From contig JANQTJ010000004.1 in the NCBI GenBank assembly GCA_030731745.1, positions 1 to 64,000 of the forward strand: 64,000 nt of DNA, read 5' to 3'. The stretch comes from Flaviramulus sp. GTDB lineage: Bacteria > Bacteroidota > Bacteroidia > Flavobacteriales > Flavobacteriaceae. The first letter of the stretch is position 1. Each line of letters starts with the position of its first letter. The notes under the pieces are model-generated. The model worked only from the letters and a program-made list of their open reading frames with translations, searched no databases and was not told the DNA's origin. Positions 4,962 through 64,000 of this stretch are shown here, piece by piece. A program made the position numbers and the translations under genes.

Positions 4962-6719
4962 CTAAACTTTAACTTTTGCGTTAATAATATCCAATCCGTC
5001 ATCAATTAATTTCCCAACTTCTGGTCTGTTTTGTTTTAAAGTTTCAAGATGCTTTAAAATACTTTCACATAAGTTTTTTTCATGCTCTTTAAAGGCTAAT
5101 TCGTAAAGTTCAATACTTAATAACCAATCGTTTGGATGTCTTTCAATAAGTTGTTCCAAAACTTTAGTTCTAGAAATGGTTTTGTTTTTTCCTGCTCTGT
5201 AATCTCTTATTTGTTTGTATAAGCCTTCTAGTTCTAATCGATTTTTTGATTTTTTAACGTGAATAGTTTGTGATACTATTTTGTGAGTTATTAAATCGAA
5301 ACTATTTAAATCTGCAGGACCAGAAAATGCCGAAACAATATCTTTACCAACAGCCATATCATAAATTCCCCATTCTGGTTGAAATAATACAGTGTCGCCG
5401 TGAGTTACTATGCAATTTTTGAAACTGATAAGAATTATTTTACCTTGAAGATTTCGTTTCCCTGTGATAATTTCACCTGAAACTTTAATACCACCTTCAA
5501 AATCTAAAGTGATTGTTTTTTCCTCATAAATATTGTAGGCACTTAAATCCCGTGGACTCATGTCTTCAATAGCCAAATTAATGCCTTTTAGTTTTCCTAG
5601 AGGAGAGCCAAAACCATCTTTATGATTTTTTACACCATGGCCTACTAATTCTTTTTCTCTGTATGATAACGCTGTTTCCCCAGTAGTTTGGATATAAATA
5701 GGGTTTCCATTGTTTTCAATTACATGACTAAAAACACCTGATATTTGAAGTCCAGTGCTTAATTCAATAGTTCCTAAAGCTTTTGAATTAATAAGTTTAT
5801 TAATACCATTAAGCCCACCTTTCCGTAAAGCCATAGTGTTAGCAAATTCTTCTAAAACTAAACTTAGATACGCAAAATCTGGTGTTACATAAAGTTGAGG
5901 CTGAGGTTTTGTAATATCAAAATCTTTGAATGTGGCTGATATGTTATAAGGTAGTTTTTCAACGGCATCAGTGATGCACCATGCGCTTTCCCCTATAGAG
6001 GATAGTAAACCAGCACCATAAATCTTTGGATTTTCAAGAGTTCCAATAAGTCCATATTCAACGGTCCACCAATGTAAGTTTCTAATCAGAGCCATTTCAC
6101 TAGGCTCTCCCATATTTTTTTGAAGTTCTTCAACTTTTTTTTCGGCAGAAGCAATATTATTTTCATCAGAATTTGGAGCTTCTTTAATAATAGATAAATG
6201 CCTTACAGCTTCATACAATTCGTAATCTTTAGCTGATGAAATGGCTTTACAACCTATGTCACCAAAGCGTCTTAAATACTCAGCATATTCAGGGTTTGCA
6301 ATAATAGGTGCATGTCCTGCGCCTTCATGAATTATATCTGGAGCAGGGGTGTATTCAATATGTTCTAATTGTCTAATATCACTTGCTATAACTAAAACGT
6401 TATATGCTTGAAATTCCATAAACGAATTGGGAGGAATAAAACCATCAACCGCTACTGCTGCCCAACCAATATCTTTTAATATGCGGTTCATGCCGTACAT
6501 ATTTGGAATACTATCAATTGAAATTCCAGTTTGTTGTAAGCCTTCAATGTAGGATTTATGAGCTACAGTTTTTAAAAAATTTACATTTTTACGCATAACA
6601 TATCGCCAAACAGCTTGATCTATAGCAGAATAATCCTCGTATTTTTGAGGTTTAATAAACTGTTTTAAATGCTTTGGTAAGCGGTTTAAAATTTCGTTAG
6701 ATTCAATTTTTCCAGACAT
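4962..6719 (-). CDS. Aromatic amino acid hydroxylase (phenylalanine 4-monooxygenase-like) with long C-terminal extension
   Basis: Metal site PDIIHEGAGHAPIIANPEYAEYLRRFG; WWTVEYGLIG; 585 aa. Confidence 0.9.
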   Translation of the reverse strand: MSGKIESNEILNRLPKHLKQFIKPQKYEDYSAIDQAVWRYVMRKNVNFLKTVAHKSYIEGLQQTGISIDSIPNMYGMNRILKDIGWAAVAVDGFIPPNSFMEFQAYNVLVIASDIRQLEHIEYTPAPDIIHEGAGHAPIIANPEYAEYLRRFGDIGCKAISSAKDYELYEAVRHLSIIKEAPNSDENNIASAEKKVEELQKNMGEPSEMALIRNLHWWTVEYGLIGTLENPKIYGAGLLSSIGESAWCITDAVEKLPYNISATFKDFDITKPQPQLYVTPDFAYLSLVLEEFANTMALRKGGLNGINKLINSKALGTIELSTGLQISGVFSHVIENNGNPIYIQTTGETALSYREKELVGHGVKNHKDGFGSPLGKLKGINLAIEDMSPRDLSAYNIYEEKTITLDFEGGIKVSGEIITGKRNLQGKIILISFKNCIVTHGDTVLFQPEWGIYDMAVGKDIVSAFSGPADLNSFDLITHKIVSQTIHVKKSKNRLELEGLYKQIRDYRAGKNKTISRTKVLEQLIERHPNDWLLSIELYELAFKEHEKNLCESILKHLETLKQNRPEVGKLIDDGLDIINAKVKV

Positions 6720-6836
6720 TTGTTCATATACTTAAAGCAAAGTAAAAATAAGAATTATTCATAAAATAAGCATTTTGTTAACTCATAATTAAATAACCTT
6801 TCTTATACCTTTGGATATTTAAAAATAAATATAAAT

Positions 6837-7166
6837 ATGTATAATTAGAGAGCTAAGATTATTGATGTTTATGATGGCGATACCGTAACAGCCATGGTAG
6901 ATTTAGGTTTTTTACATTTTCAAGAAATGAAATTGCGATTGTATGGTTTAGATACACCAGCGTTGCGAGGTGAAGATAAGCAAGAAGGTTTGAAAGTTAG
7001 AGATATACTTCGAGAGATGGTTTTGAATAAAGATGTTACCATAAGATCTTATAAAGATAAACAAGGTAAGTATGGGCGTTATTTGGCAAACATTGTTTTG
7101 GGAGATGGTTTAGAAGTAAACCAATGGTTAGTAGATAATGGCTACGCTAAGGCATATTTTCCATAA
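6837..7166 (+). pseudogene. Staphylococcal-nuclease-like (SNase) gene interrupted by in-frame TAG
   Basis: ATG TAT AAT TAG AGA GCT AAG ATT ATT GAT GTT TAT GAT GGC GAT ACC ... reads MYN*RAKIIDVYDGDTVTAMVDLGF...RLYGLDTPALRG; frame continues to stop at 7166. Confidence 0.65.
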
Positions 7167-7168
7167 AA

Positions 7169-7196
7169 AAAGCAACTTGAAAAAGTTGCTTTTTTT
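7169..7196. terminator. Bidirectional terminator between convergent genes
   Basis: AAAGCAACTT GAA AAAGTTGCTTTTTTT. Confidence 0.8.
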
Positions 7197-7200
7197 TATA

Positions 7201-7779
7201 TTATTTTTGAGATTCGGGAGGGTATTTTTCCATAATCTTAGTAACAAATTCTTTAATTCGTTGTTCTTTCTTATCCATATTTCTGCTTAAAAATCCGGTT
7301 CCCATGCCTTGCCAAACTAATTCTTTTTTATTAGCATCAATTAAATCTATATATAAAACGCCTTCAACACTCACTGATGTGCTTGGTTGATTGTTCCAAC
7401 CCCAACCCCAACCAGGTCCAAATCCGGGTCCAAAGCCTCCCCAGCCCCAGCCACCCCAACCCCAAGCGCCCATGCCCCAAGCATTGTTGTAAACATCAAC
7501 ACGTTGTTGAGATTTTGTAAAAAGACTAACTAGTAAATCTGGATTTTCTGATTTGGTAAAGCCTTTGGCTAAAAGTTCTGCTTCAATAGCACGTAGGATT
7601 CTACGTTTATCCAAATCGTTAATTTCGGCTTTGTCTATGCCTGTTTTAAAAAAAGCAAAAGTTTTATATTCATTAAAAGCAACGTTTTGATCGTAGTCTG
7701 TAGCCACCCTTACAGAGCTACAAGAAGTCACAATAATTAGTAAAGCTAAAATGGATAATGTTTTTAAGAGTCTTTTCAT
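7201..7779 (-). CDS. DUF4136-type lipoprotein with Gly/Trp-rich insert
   Basis: Lipobox IIVTSCSS; DYDQNVAFNEYKTFAFF; ends KYPPES; GWGGWGWGG tract. Confidence 0.85.
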   Translation of the reverse strand: MKRLLKTLSILALLIIVTSCSSVRVATDYDQNVAFNEYKTFAFFKTGIDKAEINDLDKRRILRAIEAELLAKGFTKSENPDLLVSLFTKSQQRVDVYNNAWGMGAWGWGGWGWGGFGPGFGPGWGWGWNNQPSTSVSVEGVLYIDLIDANKKELVWQGMGTGFLSRNMDKKEQRIKEFVTKIMEKYPPESQK

Positions 7780-7903
7780 AGCTATATTTTTTAAGTTTAT
7801 CGTTAATTAAAGTAAGGTTTAAGAATACTTTTTTAACTTTTTATTTTTAATTAACATCAATAATCATACCAATAATAAAAGTTAAAATGCTTGTTAAGAC
7901 CCT

Positions 7904-8068
7904 CTAGTTCTTTTGCTTATTCGTTTTTTTATTAAAACCATAAGGGCAATGTCGGCATCCACTTTCACAACAATATCCTCTTTTTAAATGATATTGTTCA
8001 GTAAAACATCGATAACCTTCTGGTGTTAAGTAGTAATCACCTGCTTCTATAGGTACTATTTTTTTCAT
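7904..8068 (-). CDS. Small Cys-rich DUF5522-type protein (54 aa)
   Basis: Own translation of minus strand: MKKIVPIEAGDYYLTPEGYRCFTEQYHLKRGYCCESGCRHCPYGFNKKTNKQKN*; below the ORF-track length cut-off. Confidence 0.75.
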   Translation of the reverse strand: MKKIVPIEAGDYYLTPEGYRCFTEQYHLKRGYCCESGCRHCPYGFNKKTNKQKN

Positions 8069-8117
8069 CTTTTACAAAGATAACGTAAATTGGATTGATT
8101 TTTGAAAGCTATAAAAC

Positions 8118-8456
8118 ATGATTTTTATTTCAAAATATTTGGTTCCTAATGGGTATGCTGGCTTAACTATTTTCCCATTTGTTTTTTTGAAATCTAAACA
8201 TTTGAAAATGAATAAAGTTTTGCTAAATCATGAAAAGATTCATTTAAAACAACAATTACAATTATTAGTTTTACCCTTTTATATAATCTACGTTTTGGAG
8301 TTTTTATTTAGGTTCTTTCAATATAGAAATTGGCATCGGGCTTACATAAATATTTCTTTTGAACAAGAGGCTTATACTAATAAAAATGATTTTGAGTATT
8401 TAAACAATCGACCATTTTGGGCATTTTTGAAGTATCTTTACAAACATGAAATTTAA
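8118..8456 (+). CDS. Small membrane protein with HExxH motif (M48/M56-like mini-gluzincin)
   Basis: LLNHEKIHLKQQLQLLVLPFYIIYVLEFLF ... FEQEAY. Confidence 0.6.
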   Translation: MIFISKYLVPNGYAGLTIFPFVFLKSKHLKMNKVLLNHEKIHLKQQLQLLVLPFYIIYVLEFLFRFFQYRNWHRAYINISFEQEAYTNKNDFEYLNNRPFWAFLKYLYKHEI

Positions 8457-9357
8457 ACTCGAAGATAGTATCAATCAAACTATTCATTTACCAAATGTAA
8501 GCATGGTTGAGCTATTTCTAAAACGGGAAGATAAAATACATCCGTTTGTATCAGGTAATAAATATCGAAAGCTAAAATACAATCTTTTTGAAGCTGAAAA
8601 ACAGGGTTTAAAAACCTTGTTGACCTTTGGTGGTGCTTTTTCAAACCATATAGTAGCAGTGGCTTCAGCGGGTAAGATTTTTGGTTTTAATACGATAGGC
8701 GTTATAAGAGGAGAGGAGATGTTTGATAACATCGATAGTAATCCAACTTTGTCTTTTGCAAAACAATGTGGTATGCAATTTAAGTTTGTTTCCAGAAATC
8801 TTTATTATGAAAAAATCGACTTAAATTTTATTACTAAATTGGAAGAAGAGTTTGGAAGTTTTTATTTGATTCCGGAAGGAGGAACCAATGCACTAGCGAT
8901 TAAAGGATGCGAAGAAATTTTGACAGAAGCAGATAAAAGTTTTGATTTTGTATGTACTTGTGTAGGAACTGGAGGTACTATTTCTGGACTTATAAATAGT
9001 TCAAATCAAAATCAAAAAATTTTAGGTTTTCCAGCTTTAAAAGGTGATTTTTTACAAGAAGATATTGCTAAATTTGCAACTAAAACGAATTGGGAATTAA
9101 TTACTGATTATCATTTTGGAGGGTATGCTAAAATAAACACCACTTTAGTCAGTTTTATCAATAAGTTTAAAAAGAATTATAACATGCCTTTAGATCCTGT
9201 TTATACAGGTAAAATGATGTTTGGAGTTTTTGATTTAATAGCTAAAAATTATTTTCCGAAAGGCTCAAAAATATTAATCATTCATACCGGAGGTTTACAA
9301 GGAATAGCAGGAATGAATGCAGTTTTAAAGAAGAAAAATTTACCACTAATTGCTTAG
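8446..9357 (+). CDS. PLP-dependent D-cysteine desulfhydrase / ACC deaminase family protein
   Basis: KREDKIHPFVSGNKYRKLKYNL; GGAFSNHIVAVASAG; CVGTGGTISGL. Confidence 0.88.
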   Translation: MKFKLEDSINQTIHLPNVSMVELFLKREDKIHPFVSGNKYRKLKYNLFEAEKQGLKTLLTFGGAFSNHIVAVASAGKIFGFNTIGVIRGEEMFDNIDSNPTLSFAKQCGMQFKFVSRNLYYEKIDLNFITKLEEEFGSFYLIPEGGTNALAIKGCEEILTEADKSFDFVCTCVGTGGTISGLINSSNQNQKILGFPALKGDFLQEDIAKFATKTNWELITDYHFGGYAKINTTLVSFINKFKKNYNMPLDPVYTGKMMFGVFDLIAKNYFPKGSKILIIHTGGLQGIAGMNAVLKKKNLPLIA

Positions 9358-54240: not shown

Positions 54241-54642
54241 TTATTTTTTAATTTGTGAGACTTCTTCTTTAGTAATAATTTTGTCATTTTTATTACCCCA
54301 ACTATTTGTTATATAATTCATGACATCGGCTATTTCATCGTCAGCAAGACCTAATGCAGCCATGTAACTGTTGTATTTTTTTCCGTTAACTAAAATCTCC
54401 CCTTTTTGCCCATATTTTATGCCTTTAATACTAGCTTCACGATTTTCAAAAAGGTAATCAGACTTAGCTAAAGGAGGGAATACATTTTCAATACCTTCGC
54501 CATTTGGTAAGTGGCAAGTAACGCAAAAATCTTCATACACTAAACTACCTCTTTCTATACTTTCTTTTAAAGTATTATTTTGGGTAAATACTCTTTTAGA
54601 AGCAGAGACTAAAATTACTAAACTGATTATAAAAGATTTCAT
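54241..54642 (-). CDS. Secreted c-type cytochrome
   Basis: DFCVTCHLPNGEGIENVFPPLAKSDYL; signal peptide. Confidence 0.9.
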   Translation of the reverse strand: MKSFIISLVILVSASKRVFTQNNTLKESIERGSLVYEDFCVTCHLPNGEGIENVFPPLAKSDYLFENREASIKGIKYGQKGEILVNGKKYNSYMAALGLADDEIADVMNYITNSWGNKNDKIITKEEVSQIKK

Positions 54643-55767
54643 TTACTTATTTGGAATTATTTTAAATATACCTTTTCCTTCAATAGCAACATATATATAA
54701 CCTTCTGGTCCCTCAATAACGTTTCTAACCCTTCCAGTACCCTCTAATAATTTTTCGCGTTTAACAACTTTATTATTTTCTAAAACTAATCTTTCCAGAT
54801 ATTCAAATTTTAAGGAGCCAACTAATACATTTCCTTTCCAATCTGGATAAATATCAGAAGAAACAAAAGCCATACCACTAGGAGCAATTGATGGTACCCA
54901 ATAAAAAAGAGGTTGTTCCATACCTTCTTTTGAAGTAATATCTGTGAATGCTGTTCCGCTATAATTAATTCCATAAGATATAACAGGCCAACCATAGTTT
55001 TTTCCTTTTGCAATGATGTTTATTTCATCGCCACCTTGTGGGCCATGTTCATTCGTCCAAATGTCCCCAGTAAAAGGGTTTTTTACCATACCTTGTGGGT
55101 TTCTATGTCCATAACTAAAAATAGCAGTTTTAGCATTTTCAGTTCCAACAAATGGGTTATCCGAAGGGACTGTCCCATCATCTTTAAGTCTGTAAATTTT
55201 ACCACAATCTCTAGTGATATCTTGTGGATTCACATCACGTTCACCTCTTTCACCAATTGAAAAGTATAGGTAACCTGCATTATCAAATGCAATACGAGAA
55301 CCAAAATGTTGGCCTCTTTTAGTATTTGGACCAGCTTTGTATAGTAATTGTTTTTCAACAAGGATATTACCATCTAATTTCGCTCTCATCAAGGCTGTGT
55401 TTCCACCTTCTTCATCACCTTTATCAGATGCATATGTAAAATAAATCCATCCATTATTTTCATAGTCAGGATGCGTTTTTATATCTAACAATCCACCTTG
55501 ACCACGAACATAAATTTCTGGAACACCTTCTACAAGTGTTTTTACACCATTTTTAAAATGAATAATCTCACCACTCTTTTCAGTGATTAACATACTACCA
55601 TCATTTAAAAATGTCATTCCCCAGGGAATAATTAAATCTGGAACAATAAGTTCAAAAGTGTAATTTATATTGGTTGGTGCTTCAGCCTTAATTTCAGATT
55701 CTGCTTGTTGAGCGCAAGCGCTAAAAGCCAATAACATTATGATGATTAACGCGTGAATTTGTTTCAT
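54643..55767 (-). CDS. PQQ-dependent sugar dehydrogenase (YliI/Asd-like) lipoprotein
   Basis: GQGGLLDIKTHPDY; GQHFGSRIAFD; GHRNPQGMVKNPFTGDIWTNEHGPQGGDEINIIAKGKNYGWPVISYGINYSG. Confidence 0.93.
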   Translation of the reverse strand: MKQIHALIIIMLLAFSACAQQAESEIKAEAPTNINYTFELIVPDLIIPWGMTFLNDGSMLITEKSGEIIHFKNGVKTLVEGVPEIYVRGQGGLLDIKTHPDYENNGWIYFTYASDKGDEEGGNTALMRAKLDGNILVEKQLLYKAGPNTKRGQHFGSRIAFDNAGYLYFSIGERGERDVNPQDITRDCGKIYRLKDDGTVPSDNPFVGTENAKTAIFSYGHRNPQGMVKNPFTGDIWTNEHGPQGGDEINIIAKGKNYGWPVISYGINYSGTAFTDITSKEGMEQPLFYWVPSIAPSGMAFVSSDIYPDWKGNVLVGSLKFEYLERLVLENNKVVKREKLLEGTGRVRNVIEGPEGYIYVAIEGKGIFKIIPNK

Positions 55768-55789
55768 AATTATAAATGTTTTTTATTAG

Positions 55790-58090
55790 CTAAAATAGGT
55801 AATTTAAGTTAAAACCTGTGAAATAGTTTGATGGATTTCCTGGGTAATAGTATCGTGGAGCGCTACTACCAAAACTAGTTGCATTAATTAAAATTTGAGA
55901 TGCATATTTTTCATTGAAAATATTATTTATGCCTAAGAATATGTTCATTTTTAGGTATTTACTAAGATTAGTTTTGTAACCAACTTTTAGATTTGTTAAT
56001 TGGTAATCTTCAGTAAATAGGCTATTACTATCTGTTATTGGAAAAGACCCAACATATTGGTAATTTATGTTCCCGTAAAGGCTAAAACTAGTTTCAAAAT
56101 CTATTCCAGCATTAAAAATATCAGATGGTACACCAGTTAAATCATTTCCAGAAAAATTATTGGTATTATCAATAAATTCCTTAAAAATAAATTTGTTAAG
56201 TGTATAATTAATAAATGAACTAATGGTTATTTTTTTATTTTGAAGCCAATAGTAATTGAGTGCTAATTCTAAACCATCATGTTGTGTTTTACCTGCATTA
56301 ATACCAATAAACGCATCTTCGGCAGTTCTTCTTGAAACTAATAAGTTTTTTATATTTAAACGGTAAAAGGCAAAATTGTATTGTAATTTATTGCTAAAAA
56401 ACTCACCCCTGGAACCCGCTTCAAAATTCCATCCTGTTTCTGGTTTTAAGTTGGCATTTATTTGACCATCAGGTAAAAGTGTTTCGTTTAATGAGATAGG
56501 GGAGAACCCGTGGCTAACACTGCCATAAATGCTGATGTTTTTATTAAATAAATGAGATATTCCAATTTTTGGAGATAATATGTTTTTAAATTTGAAACTT
56601 CCAGATTGATTTGGGTTTTCTGAAGTTACATGAAATTTATCATTTAATTTATATCCTGTTTCATTTAAATTTAAACCAGTTGTAAGTGTAGTTTTTTCTG
56701 AAAATTCAAAATTGGTTTCAAAAAATAAGTTGTAATAATTTCGATTTTCTATAAAATTTGATAATCTTTGTCCCGAAACACTTCCTGTACCATTTGGAAA
56801 ATCCTCATATAGATTTTCAAAAGTGCTATATTTATAAGTATCCTTAAAAAGTTCACCACCCAAGGTCCAATTCAAATTCCTTCCAAACAAATTAGTATTT
56901 CCGATGAGACGTGTTCTTAAGCCCAAGGCTAGGGTGTTTTCTTTTAAAATATCAAAGGGTCTGGGTTCGTAAGCATCCCTGAATGAAGTAAAAATACTTG
57001 TATTTTGTTTTAAATTATTATTAAAATTATGTTGCCAAGATAACCCAAAAACACCTCTTTTAGAATCTTCAAAACCTTGAGCTTGTTTCCAAGTAAAAGC
57101 AGCAGATTTTGGACTATTTAAGTATGTATTTTCATTGATTGAGCTAGGTATAAACGCTTTTAAATCAACATAACTCACTATAAAAGACAATTCATCTTTT
57201 TTACTTAAAAAATGATTAGAAGTTAAAGTAAATGTTTGTCTTTTATAGTTGTTATTTTCTCTAAATCCATCACTTTCAGTATTGCTATATACAGCTCTAA
57301 AACTATTTTCACTATTCCCGTGGTTTACGTTTAAAATGCCTTTGATTAAACCAAAAGAACCCATTGAAATTTCACCATTAAAATTAGAATCATTCAAATA
57401 AGCATTTTGTGGTATTAAGTTAATAGTGCCACCTAAACCTGCGCCATAAATACTAGAGGCTGCCCCTTTAATTATTTCTAAACGGGATATGGAAGCTAAC
57501 TCAAAATCTTCAATAGTAGTTTCTCCACTACCATTGGTAAGTGGAATGTCTTTAAAATAGGCTCTTATTTTTGAGGTTCCAAAAAGATTTCTAGAGCCTA
57601 TACCTCTTATGGTTATTCGGTTGGTGTTTAAAGCGCCACTTTGCATAAAAACCCCAGGCGTTCTATTTAATATGGGAGCAAAATCTGTGTTGTTAGATCG
57701 TTGAATATCTTCAGAAGATACAATGCTTATTGTTGCAGTGGTTTTTTTTAGTTTTGTTGGAATGTGATTCGCATTAATAACTACCTCGTTTAATTCGGAT
57801 GGTTTGATATTAAGTTGAATAATATAGTATTGATTTTCGATTAATTCGATGGTTTTTTCAATATAACCTTCTTTTTTAAACAGGTAAGAACCTGATTTAT
57901 TGATTTCAAAAGTACCATCAAAGTTAGAGATGCTATTTTTTTTGTCTTCAATATTAATTATTTGAGTAAATGCTAAACCTACTCCATTATCACTATCAAC
58001 AATTTTGCCCTTAAAGATGTCTTGTCCTAAAGTGACATGGTTAAAACCACATATTAAAAAAAATAAAAGGCTCCTCTTAAGAAATTCCAT
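55790..58090 (-). CDS. TonB-dependent receptor with CarboxypepD_reg-like N-terminal domain
   Basis: IVDSDNGVGLAFTQIINIEDKKNSISNFDGTFEI; plug domain NEVVINA...GVFMQSGALNTNRITIRGIGSR; C-terminal beta-barrel ending NYLF. Confidence 0.94.
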   Translation of the reverse strand: MEFLKRSLLFFLICGFNHVTLGQDIFKGKIVDSDNGVGLAFTQIINIEDKKNSISNFDGTFEINKSGSYLFKKEGYIEKTIELIENQYYIIQLNIKPSELNEVVINANHIPTKLKKTTATISIVSSEDIQRSNNTDFAPILNRTPGVFMQSGALNTNRITIRGIGSRNLFGTSKIRAYFKDIPLTNGSGETTIEDFELASISRLEIIKGAASSIYGAGLGGTINLIPQNAYLNDSNFNGEISMGSFGLIKGILNVNHGNSENSFRAVYSNTESDGFRENNNYKRQTFTLTSNHFLSKKDELSFIVSYVDLKAFIPSSINENTYLNSPKSAAFTWKQAQGFEDSKRGVFGLSWQHNFNNNLKQNTSIFTSFRDAYEPRPFDILKENTLALGLRTRLIGNTNLFGRNLNWTLGGELFKDTYKYSTFENLYEDFPNGTGSVSGQRLSNFIENRNYYNLFFETNFEFSEKTTLTTGLNLNETGYKLNDKFHVTSENPNQSGSFKFKNILSPKIGISHLFNKNISIYGSVSHGFSPISLNETLLPDGQINANLKPETGWNFEAGSRGEFFSNKLQYNFAFYRLNIKNLLVSRRTAEDAFIGINAGKTQHDGLELALNYYWLQNKKITISSFINYTLNKFIFKEFIDNTNNFSGNDLTGVPSDIFNAGIDFETSFSLYGNINYQYVGSFPITDSNSLFTEDYQLTNLKVGYKTNLSKYLKMNIFLGINNIFNEKYASQILINATSFGSSAPRYYYPGNPSNYFTGFNLNYLF

Positions 58091-58162
58091 TTAAAATAAA
58101 TAAAAAATTTAAAGTTGCTAAATTATGATTTTTAATCAATAGATATTTTTTTAGAAATATAA

Positions 58163-58191
58163 TTGTGAAATGAATAAAAAAAGTATATTTG
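58163..58191 (+). promoter_or_regulatory. Bacteroidetes-type promoter for tRNA-Pro
   Basis: TTG (58163) - 18 nt - TATATTTG (58184-58191). Confidence 0.65.
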
Positions 58192-58216
58192 CAAGCCGTT
58201 AGAGATAACCAAAAAT

Positions 58217-58291
58217 CGGGGTGTAGCGTAGCCCGGTTATCGCGCCGCGTTTGGGACGCGGAGGTCGCAGGTTCGAATCCTGCCACCCCGA
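58217..58291 (+). tRNA. tRNA-Pro (anticodon TGG)
   Basis: CGGGGTG acceptor pairs CACCCCG+A; anticodon stem CCGCG-TTTGGGA-CGCGG; T arm GCAGGTTCGAATCCTGC. Confidence 0.96.
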
Positions 58292-58507
58292 CAAACCTAG
58301 TTTCAGGTTTATACAAAACACTGTTAATCGTATGATTTTCAGTGTTTTTCATTTTATTTGAATTCATTTGAATTCAAATAAAACCAAATAAAAGGTGTGC
58401 AATTCGGTGAACAGCTGTTCTAAAGAAATGTCGTAATTTTAAAGAGCTTTTAAGAACAATTTGACTTTTGTCTTTGCAAAACATTTGTTTAACTAAAGTC
58501 AATAAAA

Positions 58508-59791
58508 ATGCAGACAAACAGCACATTTTCTATTATTTTCTTCACCAGAAAATCTCGCACTAACCCCAGTAAATTATCAATTTACGCACGTATTACAGTT
58601 AATGGAAAACGTTCAGAAATTAGTTTAAAAAGAAACGTTCTGGTGAACGATTGGGACAATAATAAGGCTAAATGTAGGGGGAATACAACAAAAGTAAGAT
58701 TTTTAAACGCTTATTTGGATGAAGTTTATAATCAATTGCTCGATTGCCACAAGCAATTATTTGAAGAGCACAAAATGGTATCTGCCAATGCAATTAAAAG
58801 ACGATATTTAGGTGAGGATGATAATCACAAAACCTTAAAAGAACTCATAACCTATCATAATACTAATATGATCAATGTATTGAAATTTGGTACTATGAAA
58901 AATTACTACACTACAGAAAGATATCTACATAAGTTTTTAAACGAAATTTTAAAAGTAGATGACATCTATCTAAAACAGCTAAATTATCACTTTATCTGTG
59001 ATTTTGAACAATACCTTCGAAAGTACAAAAACACAAAAAAGGAACTCTCTTTAAATAACAATGGCGTTATGAAACATCTAGAGCGGTTTAAGAAAATGAT
59101 TAACCTAGCCTTTAGGTTAGAATGGATTCCAAAAAATCCTTTTATTCAGTTCCAATTGAAGTTTAATAAATTTGATAGACAATATTTAACAGAAAGAGAA
59201 TTGAGCCTTCTTGAAAATACATTTTTTAAACAAGAACGTTTGGAGCGGGTCAAAGATATTTTTATCTTTTCTTGTTATACAGGATTGTCCTATATCGATG
59301 TCAAGGAACTGACTATCCGTCAGATAGTAAAAAGAATAGATAATAAATATTGGATTCATACTAAAAGGGAAAAGACCAATGAGGTAGTTAATATACCGAT
59401 ACTACCAAAAGCATTGGCGATTATAGAGAAGTATAAGTACATTTCTGAATTATCAAATGAAACAAAATTATTACCTCTTTGTTCGAATCAAAAAACCAAT
59501 AGCTATTTAAAGGAAATAATGGTAGCCTGTGGGATTCATAAAAACGTTACGTTTCAAGTAGCCAGACATACATTTGCAACTACAGTGATGCTCACCAATG
59601 GCGTGCCTTTAGAAACAGTATCAAAATTACTGGGGCACACCAAATTGTCAACCACACAAATCTATGCTAGGGTACTGGATACAAAGATTAATGAGGACAT
59701 CGATACCCTATTAGAGCGGTTTGAAAGAAAAAAACGGAATCAGATAGACCAGTCAAACGTTTTTAAAGCTGTGGATTCAGAGGCTGGGTAA
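58508..59791 (+). CDS. Tyrosine recombinase/integrase (Bacteroidetes mobile-element type)
   Basis: Arm-binding N-terminus (FFTRKSRTNPSKLSIYARITVNGKRSEISL), TGLSYIDVKEL, ARHTFATTVMLTNGVPLETVSKLLGHTKLSTTQIYARV. Confidence 0.93.
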   Translation: MQTNSTFSIIFFTRKSRTNPSKLSIYARITVNGKRSEISLKRNVLVNDWDNNKAKCRGNTTKVRFLNAYLDEVYNQLLDCHKQLFEEHKMVSANAIKRRYLGEDDNHKTLKELITYHNTNMINVLKFGTMKNYYTTERYLHKFLNEILKVDDIYLKQLNYHFICDFEQYLRKYKNTKKELSLNNNGVMKHLERFKKMINLAFRLEWIPKNPFIQFQLKFNKFDRQYLTERELSLLENTFFKQERLERVKDIFIFSCYTGLSYIDVKELTIRQIVKRIDNKYWIHTKREKTNEVVNIPILPKALAIIEKYKYISELSNETKLLPLCSNQKTNSYLKEIMVACGIHKNVTFQVARHTFATTVMLTNGVPLETVSKLLGHTKLSTTQIYARVLDTKINEDIDTLLERFERKKRNQIDQSNVFKAVDSEAG

Positions 59792-60964: not shown

Positions 60965-63900
60965 CTAAAACTTTTTTCTAATGGATTCTGATACTTTATA
61001 TCGTTCACGATATCTGGCTTTACTTTTGATTTGAAAAACCACAAACCACAAACCACAAATTAAAGTTATACCAAAAACTACAATAATAATCCACCAAAAA
61101 GAATTATTGAAAGATGTTAACTTAATTGGCGATGTATCTCCAATTAAAACTAAGCCTGCCCAATATTGAGGATGTATTGTTCTGCCTTGTGCCGTTGCGA
61201 TATAATCGAGTTTTGCTTTTTGCAAAGCTTCGTCTTTTGGCAATCCTCTTTTAATGTAGGTATAGAAATTCTCAATAATTTTAGCACTAGATTGCTCATC
61301 TATTTTCCAAAGGCTGGTTAAAATACTTTCGCTACCAGCATAATTAAATGCGTGCGCCAGCGATATCATACCTTCTCCAGCTTGATAGGTTGGTTTGCCT
61401 GTTTCGCAAGCTGTAAGAATGGCTAAATTTGAACTTAAATTTTGATTGTAAATTTCGTAAGTGTATAAAGAATTGTCTTCATCTGAAGTGTTTTTAGCAA
61501 AAATTAATCGTGATAATTCTGGCGATACATTATTAGATTCTGCGTGCGTACCAATATGTATTATTTTATGTTCTTTTGCTTCATTCGTAAAAAGTTGTTT
61601 GGATGCTTTTTCATTTAAAAAGGAAGTGCCGCTAAATAATTTAGAATATTCTTTAGCCAAATCAACACTAAAAGGTTGAGGCAATAAGGTTAAATACATT
61701 TTGTCTATTACCAAAGAATCTGTAATAGCAATCTTGTAATCGTTTTTCATTTTATCATTAAACTCTGGAGCAAAGGCAATAAAATCTTGATTATAGTTTA
61801 TTGTTTTTCTGTTTTTATCTAACAAAAATAAACTATAGTTGTATGAAATAATATGTTTAGATAAAAGACAATTGTTTGCCAGATCCTTAAATGAATTTAC
61901 TTTTTTTGTTATGAGTGTTTCGAAACTTAAATTAAATAATTCGGCATCTGGAATAATAACAACTTTATTCCCTTTTATATTTTTTTCAATAGGGAGCCAG
62001 AGTTGTTTATAAAGTGAAAAAAGAAGCGAGCTTAATGAATTTATATCGGAAGGGCTTTCTCCTAATTTATTAATGTTTTCATTTAAATTTTCAGCATTTA
62101 TTTTGATAAGATTTTTTTCATTGTTGTTTATAACAAAAGCATATAGATCTTTTTCAATAAATAGATACCGCACTACAGTTGTGCCTTTTGGGGTATTTTT
62201 TTGGAGATTATCTAAAGGTTCTTCTATAGTTGCATAACGCATTTTGTAATATTTCGGATAATTAAGCTTTAAACTATCTAAAAAAATGCGCCATTTTATA
62301 TTAGCATCAAAATAGCTTTTAATATTTTCAGATGTATTTAATGATTTTGAAATGTTGTTTTTTAATGCAGTTTCTCTTTCACTAATTTTTCTGGGGATAT
62401 TATTAAATGCAATGTTGTCATTTAGGTTTAACCTCGACCTAATACGGTTATAAATACTAGACTCATGAATGGAAATTAAATCGTTTAAATACTTTTTGTC
62501 TTTTGTTTTTTCGTATAAATTTAATCGAAGTTGTTTGGCGAAGTTGAATAAATCGAAGTTATCTGTCATTAACTTAGCGATGTCGTCTGATGTGTTAATG
62601 ATGGTTTTTCGTTGTTCTAATATTGTAATTGCGGTTTCAATTTGTTTTAATAAATCTAAAAGCAGCTTGCCATTTTTATTTTCTGTTAAATGATATTTGG
62701 AAGACGCATTTATATATAGAGCCCTTGGTTTATCGAATTGAATAAGGATTGAGTCTTGCGTAGTTTTATAATCGCTATTAATTTTGAAATTAATGGCTTT
62801 TTGACTCAATTCCTTAGCTTTTAAATAGTCATTAAGTTGATAATAAATTTCAGCTATTGTTGTAATATTGGTTAATTCTTGTCTCGTATTTTTAAAATCA
62901 CCTTGCTGAACTGCTTTATAAGTTTCTTCGGCAAGTTCTACAGCTTTTGGTTTTTTTCCATTTTTCGCGTAAAATAGCCCCATATTGTTTAGCGCCAATA
63001 AAAAATCGTCATTATATTTTCCTGCTAATGATTTTCTAAAAACGGCTTCAGCTTTGGTATAATATTCGGACGCTTTTTCGGGTTGATTATTTTGTTCATA
63101 TATTTTTCCGCGCGTTAATAGTGCGGTGGCATGCCAATATAATTGATTTAGGCTGCTTGATTGTATTGTTTGTATAGCATGGTCTAGTAACTCTGCCGCA
63201 CCTATTAAATCCTGAGTATTTAACTTAGATTGTGCTAAAATTATTTTTGAGATAATCACATCGGGGTTGTTTTCCTCCAACATTTTTTTCTTCTGATTAT
63301 ACGAATATGAAATAATTTTTTCAGTTTCATTAAATTGGCCAATGGTATTATAAAAAACACCCAAATTATCAATAGCTACTAATTGATTTTTTTTGGCAGC
63401 ATTTTTTTGTTGTTCATTTTCTTCGAGGTTTATGTATTGATTAAATCCTTTTATGGCAAGTTCCGAAAATGAAATGGCTTCTGTATTTTTCCCCAACATA
63501 TTAGAGAGTACCGCTAAATTCATATTCACCAAAGAAGGTCTGTAATATTTATTTATGGGTTCGTTCTTTGTGTTTTTAAGTGCTTTTAATGATTGGTTAA
63601 AAAAGAAGTAGGAACTATCTAATTTACCTTCTCGCCACATGGCTCCACCTAGTGCATTATTTATTTGCTGGTTAAAAACATAATCTTTTTTAGTCTGTCG
63701 CTCGGTTAATTCAAGACTCTTAAAGTAATGTTTTTTTGATAACGGATAATCGCCCATTGCTGCAGCATAATAACCCATGTTATAATTAAAATCTGCTATA
63801 ACAGCTGTTGAATTTTCTTTTAACTGATTAGCATAAACTATTGCTTCTTTTAAAGTATTATATGCATCATTTGGTTTTCCAGACTCTTCATAAATCCAAG

Positions 63901-64000
63901 CCAACTCTTTTAATGCTTTTGTTGTAATGTTGGGATTTTGATTTTTTTTCAGATCATCAACAAACTTTAAAGATTTCGATAAAGCGAAATCCCTGTTTTT
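60965..64000 (-). CDS. TPR-CHAT protease-like protein with C-terminal TM, 5' end beyond window
   Basis: TPR repeats; CHAT dyad KIIHIGTHAES ... LAILTACETGKPTYQAGEGMISLAHAFNYAGSESILTSLW; TM SFWWIIIVVFGITLICGLWFVVF; frame open to window end. Confidence 0.9.
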   Translation of the reverse strand, partial: KNRDFALSKSLKFVDDLKKNQNPNITTKALKELAWIYEESGKPNDAYNTLKEAIVYANQLKENSTAVIADFNYNMGYYAAAMGDYPLSKKHYFKSLELTERQTKKDYVFNQQINNALGGAMWREGKLDSSYFFFNQSLKALKNTKNEPINKYYRPSLVNMNLAVLSNMLGKNTEAISFSELAIKGFNQYINLEENEQQKNAAKKNQLVAIDNLGVFYNTIGQFNETEKIISYSYNQKKKMLEENNPDVIISKIILAQSKLNTQDLIGAAELLDHAIQTIQSSSLNQLYWHATALLTRGKIYEQNNQPEKASEYYTKAEAVFRKSLAGKYNDDFLLALNNMGLFYAKNGKKPKAVELAEETYKAVQQGDFKNTRQELTNITTIAEIYYQLNDYLKAKELSQKAINFKINSDYKTTQDSILIQFDKPRALYINASSKYHLTENKNGKLLLDLLKQIETAITILEQRKTIINTSDDIAKLMTDNFDLFNFAKQLRLNLYEKTKDKKYLNDLISIHESSIYNRIRSRLNLNDNIAFNNIPRKISERETALKNNISKSLNTSENIKSYFDANIKWRIFLDSLKLNYPKYYKMRYATIEEPLDNLQKNTPKGTTVVRYLFIEKDLYAFVINNNEKNLIKINAENLNENINKLGESPSDINSLSSLLFSLYKQLWLPIEKNIKGNKVVIIPDAELFNLSFETLITKKVNSFKDLANNCLLSKHIISYNYSLFLLDKNRKTINYNQDFIAFAPEFNDKMKNDYKIAITDSLVIDKMYLTLLPQPFSVDLAKEYSKLFSGTSFLNEKASKQLFTNEAKEHKIIHIGTHAESNNVSPELSRLIFAKNTSDEDNSLYTYEIYNQNLSSNLAILTACETGKPTYQAGEGMISLAHAFNYAGSESILTSLWKIDEQSSAKIIENFYTYIKRGLPKDEALQKAKLDYIATAQGRTIHPQYWAGLVLIGDTSPIKLTSFNNSFWWIIIVVFGITLICGLWFVVFQIKSKARYRERYKVSESIRKKF

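Follow-up and report, generated by a model that had tools for sequence, protein, structure and literature searches.

TonB-dependent import of PQQ by the Escherichia coli receptor PqqU (YncD; PDB 9c4o and 6v81) has been published (PMC12124388), and PMC11658791 cites Hantke and Friz 2022 for it as well. PqqU occurs in bacteria without PQQ synthesis; among 206 Bacteroidota carrying it, none had PQQ synthesis (PMC12124388). Its signature is Tyr, Phe or Trp at position 99, Arg304 and Arg365 in E. coli precursor numbering, which we checked against the E. coli pqqU gene; Tyr99 stacks on PQQ in the E. coli receptor, and Glu at position 274 has been proposed to let a metal travel with PQQ (PMC12124388). 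In the same 2025 survey no PQQ enzyme could be assigned to about a third of the PqqU carriers. The survey filtered receptors on R304 and R365 and sought enzymes with one published dehydrogenase profile together with PF01011, PF13360 and PF13570; aldose dehydrogenases and PF07995 go unmentioned in its main text (PMC12124388). Described PQQ enzymes with a cytochrome partner include methanol dehydrogenase, which is served by cytochrome cL (PMC9728263), and the fungal pyranose dehydrogenase, in which a cytochrome b is fused to the PQQ enzyme (PMC4332668).

How does the locus studied here compare with these systems? The window, a 64,000-nucleotide stretch of Flaviramulus sp. contig JANQTJ010000004.1, belongs to a 2.36 Mb assembly of 46 contigs whose completeness is estimated at 75%. 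On its minus strand, three ATG-started open reading frames lie 22 and 0 bp apart and encode a 766-residue TonB-dependent receptor of the PqqU superfamily (55790..58090), a 374-residue Asd/YliI-type PQQ-dependent aldose sugar dehydrogenase of the GSDH family (PF07995; 54643..55767) and a 133-residue periplasmic mono-haem cytochrome c, the presumed electron acceptor (54241..54642). The first-pass annotation had placed a three-gene unit at 54241-58090, and these outer coordinates match the reading frames exactly; its names for the genes (TonB receptor, YliI/Asd-type dehydrogenase, CVTCH cytochrome) are upheld by Pfam and NCBIfam. A 96-residue reading frame immediately upstream of the receptor (58077-58367) overlaps a tRNA-Pro gene (58217-58292, plus strand) and is probably spurious. 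We propose, with somewhat better than even confidence, that the trio forms a module that scavenges PQQ for sugar oxidation in the periplasm, as a variant of the PQQ scavenging already known. First, the receptor would draw on TonB energy to bring traces of PQQ, which may travel with its metal, from the medium through the outer membrane and into the periplasm. Second, judging from the enzyme's residues, PQQ would load into the putatively lipid-anchored dehydrogenase of the envelope, which would then oxidise aldose sugars to lactones. Third, gene order and a natural fusion found elsewhere suggest that the cytochrome c would receive the electrons and feed them into the respiratory chain.

The enzyme scores 432 bits against PF07995 (cut-off 25), and its nearest relatives by protein identity are from Flaviramulus and other marine Flavobacteriaceae (80% or less). 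The described enzyme closest in kind, the soluble E. coli YliI/Asd (PDB 2g8s), is 41% identical to it and has identical PQQ and calcium ligands; the window enzyme differs in being a predicted lipoprotein whose operon also encodes a cytochrome c. Alignment with soluble glucose dehydrogenase places His154, Arg222, Asn223, Gly242-Pro243, Lys320, Arg346 and Arg348 at His144, Arg228, Asn229, Gly247-Pro248, Lys377, Arg406 and Arg408, which bind PQQ and calcium in that enzyme, and each ligand is kept in 74-80 of 80 dehydrogenase orthologs. The lipobox-like FSAC had been remarked on before; its Cys18 (codon 55714..55716) is kept in 79 of the 80 orthologs, so the dehydrogenase is probably a lipoprotein. 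Were it exposed at the cell surface, there would be less need for PQQ import. The genome holds further, weaker PF07995 matches, and no PF01011 quinoprotein was found in this 75% complete assembly; likewise, a search near the receptors for an eight-bladed enzyme like E. coli Gcd found none. The cytochrome matches PF00034 with 47 bits and carries its CVTCH motif at residues 40-44. In comparison to the known PQQ dehydrogenase-cytochrome units, the window combines a six-bladed GSDH enzyme with a c-type cytochrome and has an import receptor in the operon.

The receptor comprises a signal peptide, an N-terminal CarboxypepD-reg-like domain, a plug (residues 114-221; 67 bits) and a TonB barrel (154 bits). 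In both sequence and predicted fold, no characterised protein is closer to it than E. coli PqqU; the siderophore and B12 receptors follow at a wide distance. The top PDB sequence matches are PqqU entries (9c4o, E 2e-41; 6v81, E 8e-41), followed at E 1e-10 by a receptor of the FoxA/CntO type. Among E. coli receptors, PqqU reaches 157 bits, and BtuB, FepA, CirA, FhuA and Fiu about 60 or less; conversely, the PqqU model gives the window receptor about 160 bits and every other receptor of the genome at most 26. An AlphaFold2 model built from 60 orthologs (mean pLDDT 79, pTM 0.80) finds the PqqU-PQQ complex 9c4o first (E 5e-54; TM by target length 0.86). Fiu follows at E 2e-41, and the matches after PqqU have TM values of 0.70-0.82. 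A quick maximum-likelihood tree unites PqqU with the window clade, several unassigned clades and 23 full-signature receptors from Bacteroidota in one superfamily, set apart from BtuB, FepA, CirA, FhuA and Fiu with SH-aLRT 100. On scores, fold and tree we reject a B12 or siderophore receptor: the closer likeness to such receptors that the first-pass annotation had named as a counter-indication is reversed in the PDB sequence search, the fold search and the E. coli panel.

We do not class the receptor as PqqU proper because Arg365 is lost and because it lies outside the signature clade; its sister clade in the tree, which lacks both signature arginines, lies outside the signature clade as well. 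It is 24% identical to E. coli PqqU, from which it further differs in having Tyr for R365, Glu for K274 and an N-terminal Bacteroidota domain, and in being encoded together with its presumed enzyme in one operon; in E. coli, pqqU lies beside neither gcd nor yliI. Its score with the NCBIfam PqqU model NF041535, 161 bits, is below the curated cut-off of 1200, which full-signature receptors of Bacteroidota miss too (416 bits at most). Two members of the sister clade, L183 (9314-10207) and L185, adjoin a protein that by eye resembles a BtuF-like binding protein. Two more Bacteroidota clades of the superfamily are without the full set of aromatic 99, R304 and R365 (L201, L202, L209, L211, L212, L220-L224, L227 and others).

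What, then, does the receptor carry? At the signature positions it has Phe170 for position 99 (codon 57581..57583), Arg371 for position 304 (56978..56980) and Tyr421 for position 365 (56828..56830). The aromatic residue is Phe or Tyr in 60 of 60 aligned receptors; position 304 in the same 60 is Arg in 35 and Lys in 11. Across the window clade in our sample of the order, position 304 is Lys in 18, Leu in 10, Arg in 7 and Ile in 1, and position 274 is Glu in 25 and Lys in 11. A gap appeared near 365 with one of the two alignment methods used, but the region aligns ungapped with the signature receptor L191 between the anchors G-x-D/E and F-D/E-N-L, and the loss of Arg365 is thus real at the sequence level. 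Two further residues, Glu341 at the K274 position and Arg377, which lies in the motif EPRPF six residues past position 304, are invariant in 60 close orthologs. Arg377, which is close by, might replace the lost Arg365. Since the signature is kept at 99 and 304 and not at 365, we infer that PQQ is the likely ligand. More specifically, the clade could represent a second line of PQQ importers that has diverged and remodelled its pocket: Arg365 is missing, and the Asd-adjacent branch has Glu at the K274 position and the invariant Arg377. Such a receptor would take up PQQ, which may be bound to a metal, and would be dedicated through its operon to GSDH-type quinoproteins; we put this forward tentatively, at somewhat less than even chances.

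The lost Arg365 is the strongest argument against the cofactor as ligand, and further points against the module are that Arg or Lys occupies position 304 in only part of the wider clade and that five genomes of the family have the enzyme without the receptor. The same residues make room for a different small ligand, such as a quinone, a metal chelate or a siderophore-like compound, carried by a receptor that shares only its ancestry with PqqU, in which case the enzyme would obtain PQQ by diffusion through porins. Besides the Tyr at 365 and the variation at 304, this reading draws on the sister clade: because it is without both arginines and some of its members stand beside a protein that resembles BtuF, the ligand may have changed. 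We nevertheless regard it as unlikely. No inner-membrane importer was found to recur next to receptors of the window clade, the aromatic residue at 99 is invariant, Arg377 might make good the lost arginine, and all 36 receptor-bearing genomes of the family also carry one or the other of two GSDH-type enzymes.

Two samples bear on co-conservation. In 80 related loci retrieved with the enzyme alone as query, receptor, enzyme and cytochrome occur together in 61, enzyme and cytochrome in 16 and the enzyme by itself in 3, and trio order and strand are constant; such regularity in 61 of 80 loci is not chance. Among the 19 loci without the trio some end at a contig edge, and at least four of the receptor-less ones (L046, L051, L070, L085) are too short upstream to hold a whole receptor gene. 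An independent sample comprised 248 genomes of the order, in which receptor orthologs were counted at 450 bits or more, with a clean gap down to 207, and enzyme orthologs at 456 bits or more. Within the window's family (54 genomes) the receptor is present in 36. The enzyme ortholog accompanies it in 24 of these, its gene lying within the receptor's operon, next to the receptor in convergent orientation, or somewhere else in the genome; the convergent case is seen in part of the genomes of genus g2, where the receptor gene faces the cytochrome-enzyme pair. The other 12 carry a second GSDH-like lipoprotein gene beside the receptor. By comparison, the 18 receptor-negative genomes have the enzyme ortholog in five cases and the second GSDH-like gene in none, so that one or the other enzyme accompanies the receptor in 36 of 36 genomes versus 5 of 18 without it (Fisher 8e-9, on raw genome counts that ignore kinship). 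In the sample of the order, 16 receptor genes have no GSDH gene within about 7 kb, which weighs against the module. The first-pass annotation had held that an absence of co-conservation between receptor and dehydrogenase would speak against its reading; the opposite is seen, both in the trio and in the constant presence of an enzyme partner.

The second GSDH-like enzyme is a weak match to PF07995 (44-54 bits), and its closest NCBIfam model is Piru_Ver_Nterm. Its gene lies directly upstream of the receptor (L158, L159, L160, L161, L163, L165, L167, L174, L176 and others), and receptor-negative genomes of the family sample have no ortholog of it. It keeps the His, the Arg-Asn pair and one Arg of the ligand set and has lost the Gly-Pro calcium site, the Lys and the last Arg; since only part of the ligands is kept, its use of PQQ is uncertain, a further point against the module. 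In one genome the enzyme ortholog lies in two overlapping pieces in different frames (G130:C1:1336384-1337459, minus strand), either a broken gene or an assembly error, and the receptor there adjoins the second GSDH-like enzyme.

Similar ties are found with canonical PqqU. Among Bacteroidota genomes that encode a signature PqqU, 18 of 23 also have a strong match to the Asd-type GSDH (at least 370 bits), versus 8 of 38 drawn from genomes without a PqqU match (Fisher 2e-5); counted by family, the figures are 10 of 12 and 4 of 17. Furthermore, in locus L208 of a genome from another Bacteroidota family (G310), a single 503-residue frame joins a cytochrome c domain to a GSDH domain (5241-6749), the latter 55% identical to the window enzyme, and a full-signature PqqU gene (6731-8890) follows directly on the same strand. 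This locus links all three functions of the window trio to canonical PqqU. Further downstream on the same strand lie a 6-phosphogluconate dehydrogenase-like gene and zwf.

Could the receptor instead import the substrate of the dehydrogenase, a sugar or an oligosaccharide? TonB receptors are commonly used for glycans in Bacteroidota, and the adjacency of the receptor and dehydrogenase genes would suit such a role. We consider it improbable, more so than a different small ligand. The operon is without a SusD-like partner or a glycosidase, and the nearest family is PqqU (161 bits) rather than SusC (79 bits with the SusC/RagA model); on family scores and the absence of SusD we reject a SusC-type glycan importer. 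Monosaccharides, moreover, already cross the outer membrane through porins. The strongest argument for a cofactor over a sugar is that one receptor clade follows two different GSDH-type enzymes, a pattern that a common cofactor fits better. That the linkage is a relic of neighbourhood, with receptor and enzyme functionally unrelated, could appeal to the many family members in which both genes are present yet unlinked and to co-occurrence counts that ignore shared descent, and is very improbable given the two arrangements with the orthologous enzyme, the adjacency to a second enzyme type and the co-presence even where the genes are unlinked.

A PQQ-scavenging module is also consistent with the searches for PQQ synthesis. 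PqqC went undetected in the 75% complete genome itself and in 43 further, nearly complete genomes that carry the receptor, the enzyme or both, and the same model scored 428 bits on Sinorhizobium meliloti pSymB as a positive control. Absence from the incomplete genome would by itself be a weak argument, and it is the relatives that bear the weight. For PqqE, the genome gave only a weak radical-SAM match (56 bits versus a cut-off of 381). The full pqq pathway that the first-pass annotation had named as a counter-indication was not found, PqqC being undetected in all 44 genomes with receptor, enzyme or both. Taken together, the proposal of PQQ scavenging made in the first-pass annotation is strengthened and unproven: PqqU is the nearest relative, PqqC was not found and the genes are co-conserved, but the signature fails at position 365.

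PQQ scavenging itself is known; the receptor branch and its fixed pairing with the GSDH enzyme family appear to be undescribed. A search covering part of the literature found nothing on receptor-GSDH pairing in Flavobacteria beyond PMC12124388. That survey probably missed such receptors and enzymes because it filtered on R304 and R365 and because PF07995 was not in its enzyme set. The trio, the second GSDH-like neighbour, the fusion and the enrichment alongside signature PqqU together tie GSDH genetically to the PqqU-type receptors of Bacteroidota. If the proposed module is correct, PQQ use in Bacteroidota would be larger than counted and would rest on import, and the natural ligand of the receptor and the physiological role of Asd-type enzymes could be tested together in one operon.

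Finally, we note two features of the surrounding DNA. The tRNA-Pro(TGG) gene upstream of the receptor is followed about 215 bp downstream by a frame that by eye resembles a tyrosine recombinase (58508-59791, plus strand), an arrangement that reads like the edge of an integrated element; a second copy of the tRNA-Pro 3' end, which would mark the end of an island, was not found elsewhere in the 64-kb window. Beyond it, a 979-residue frame on the minus strand (60965-63904) shows, by eye, tetratricopeptide-like repeats followed by a CHAT-like peptidase domain.
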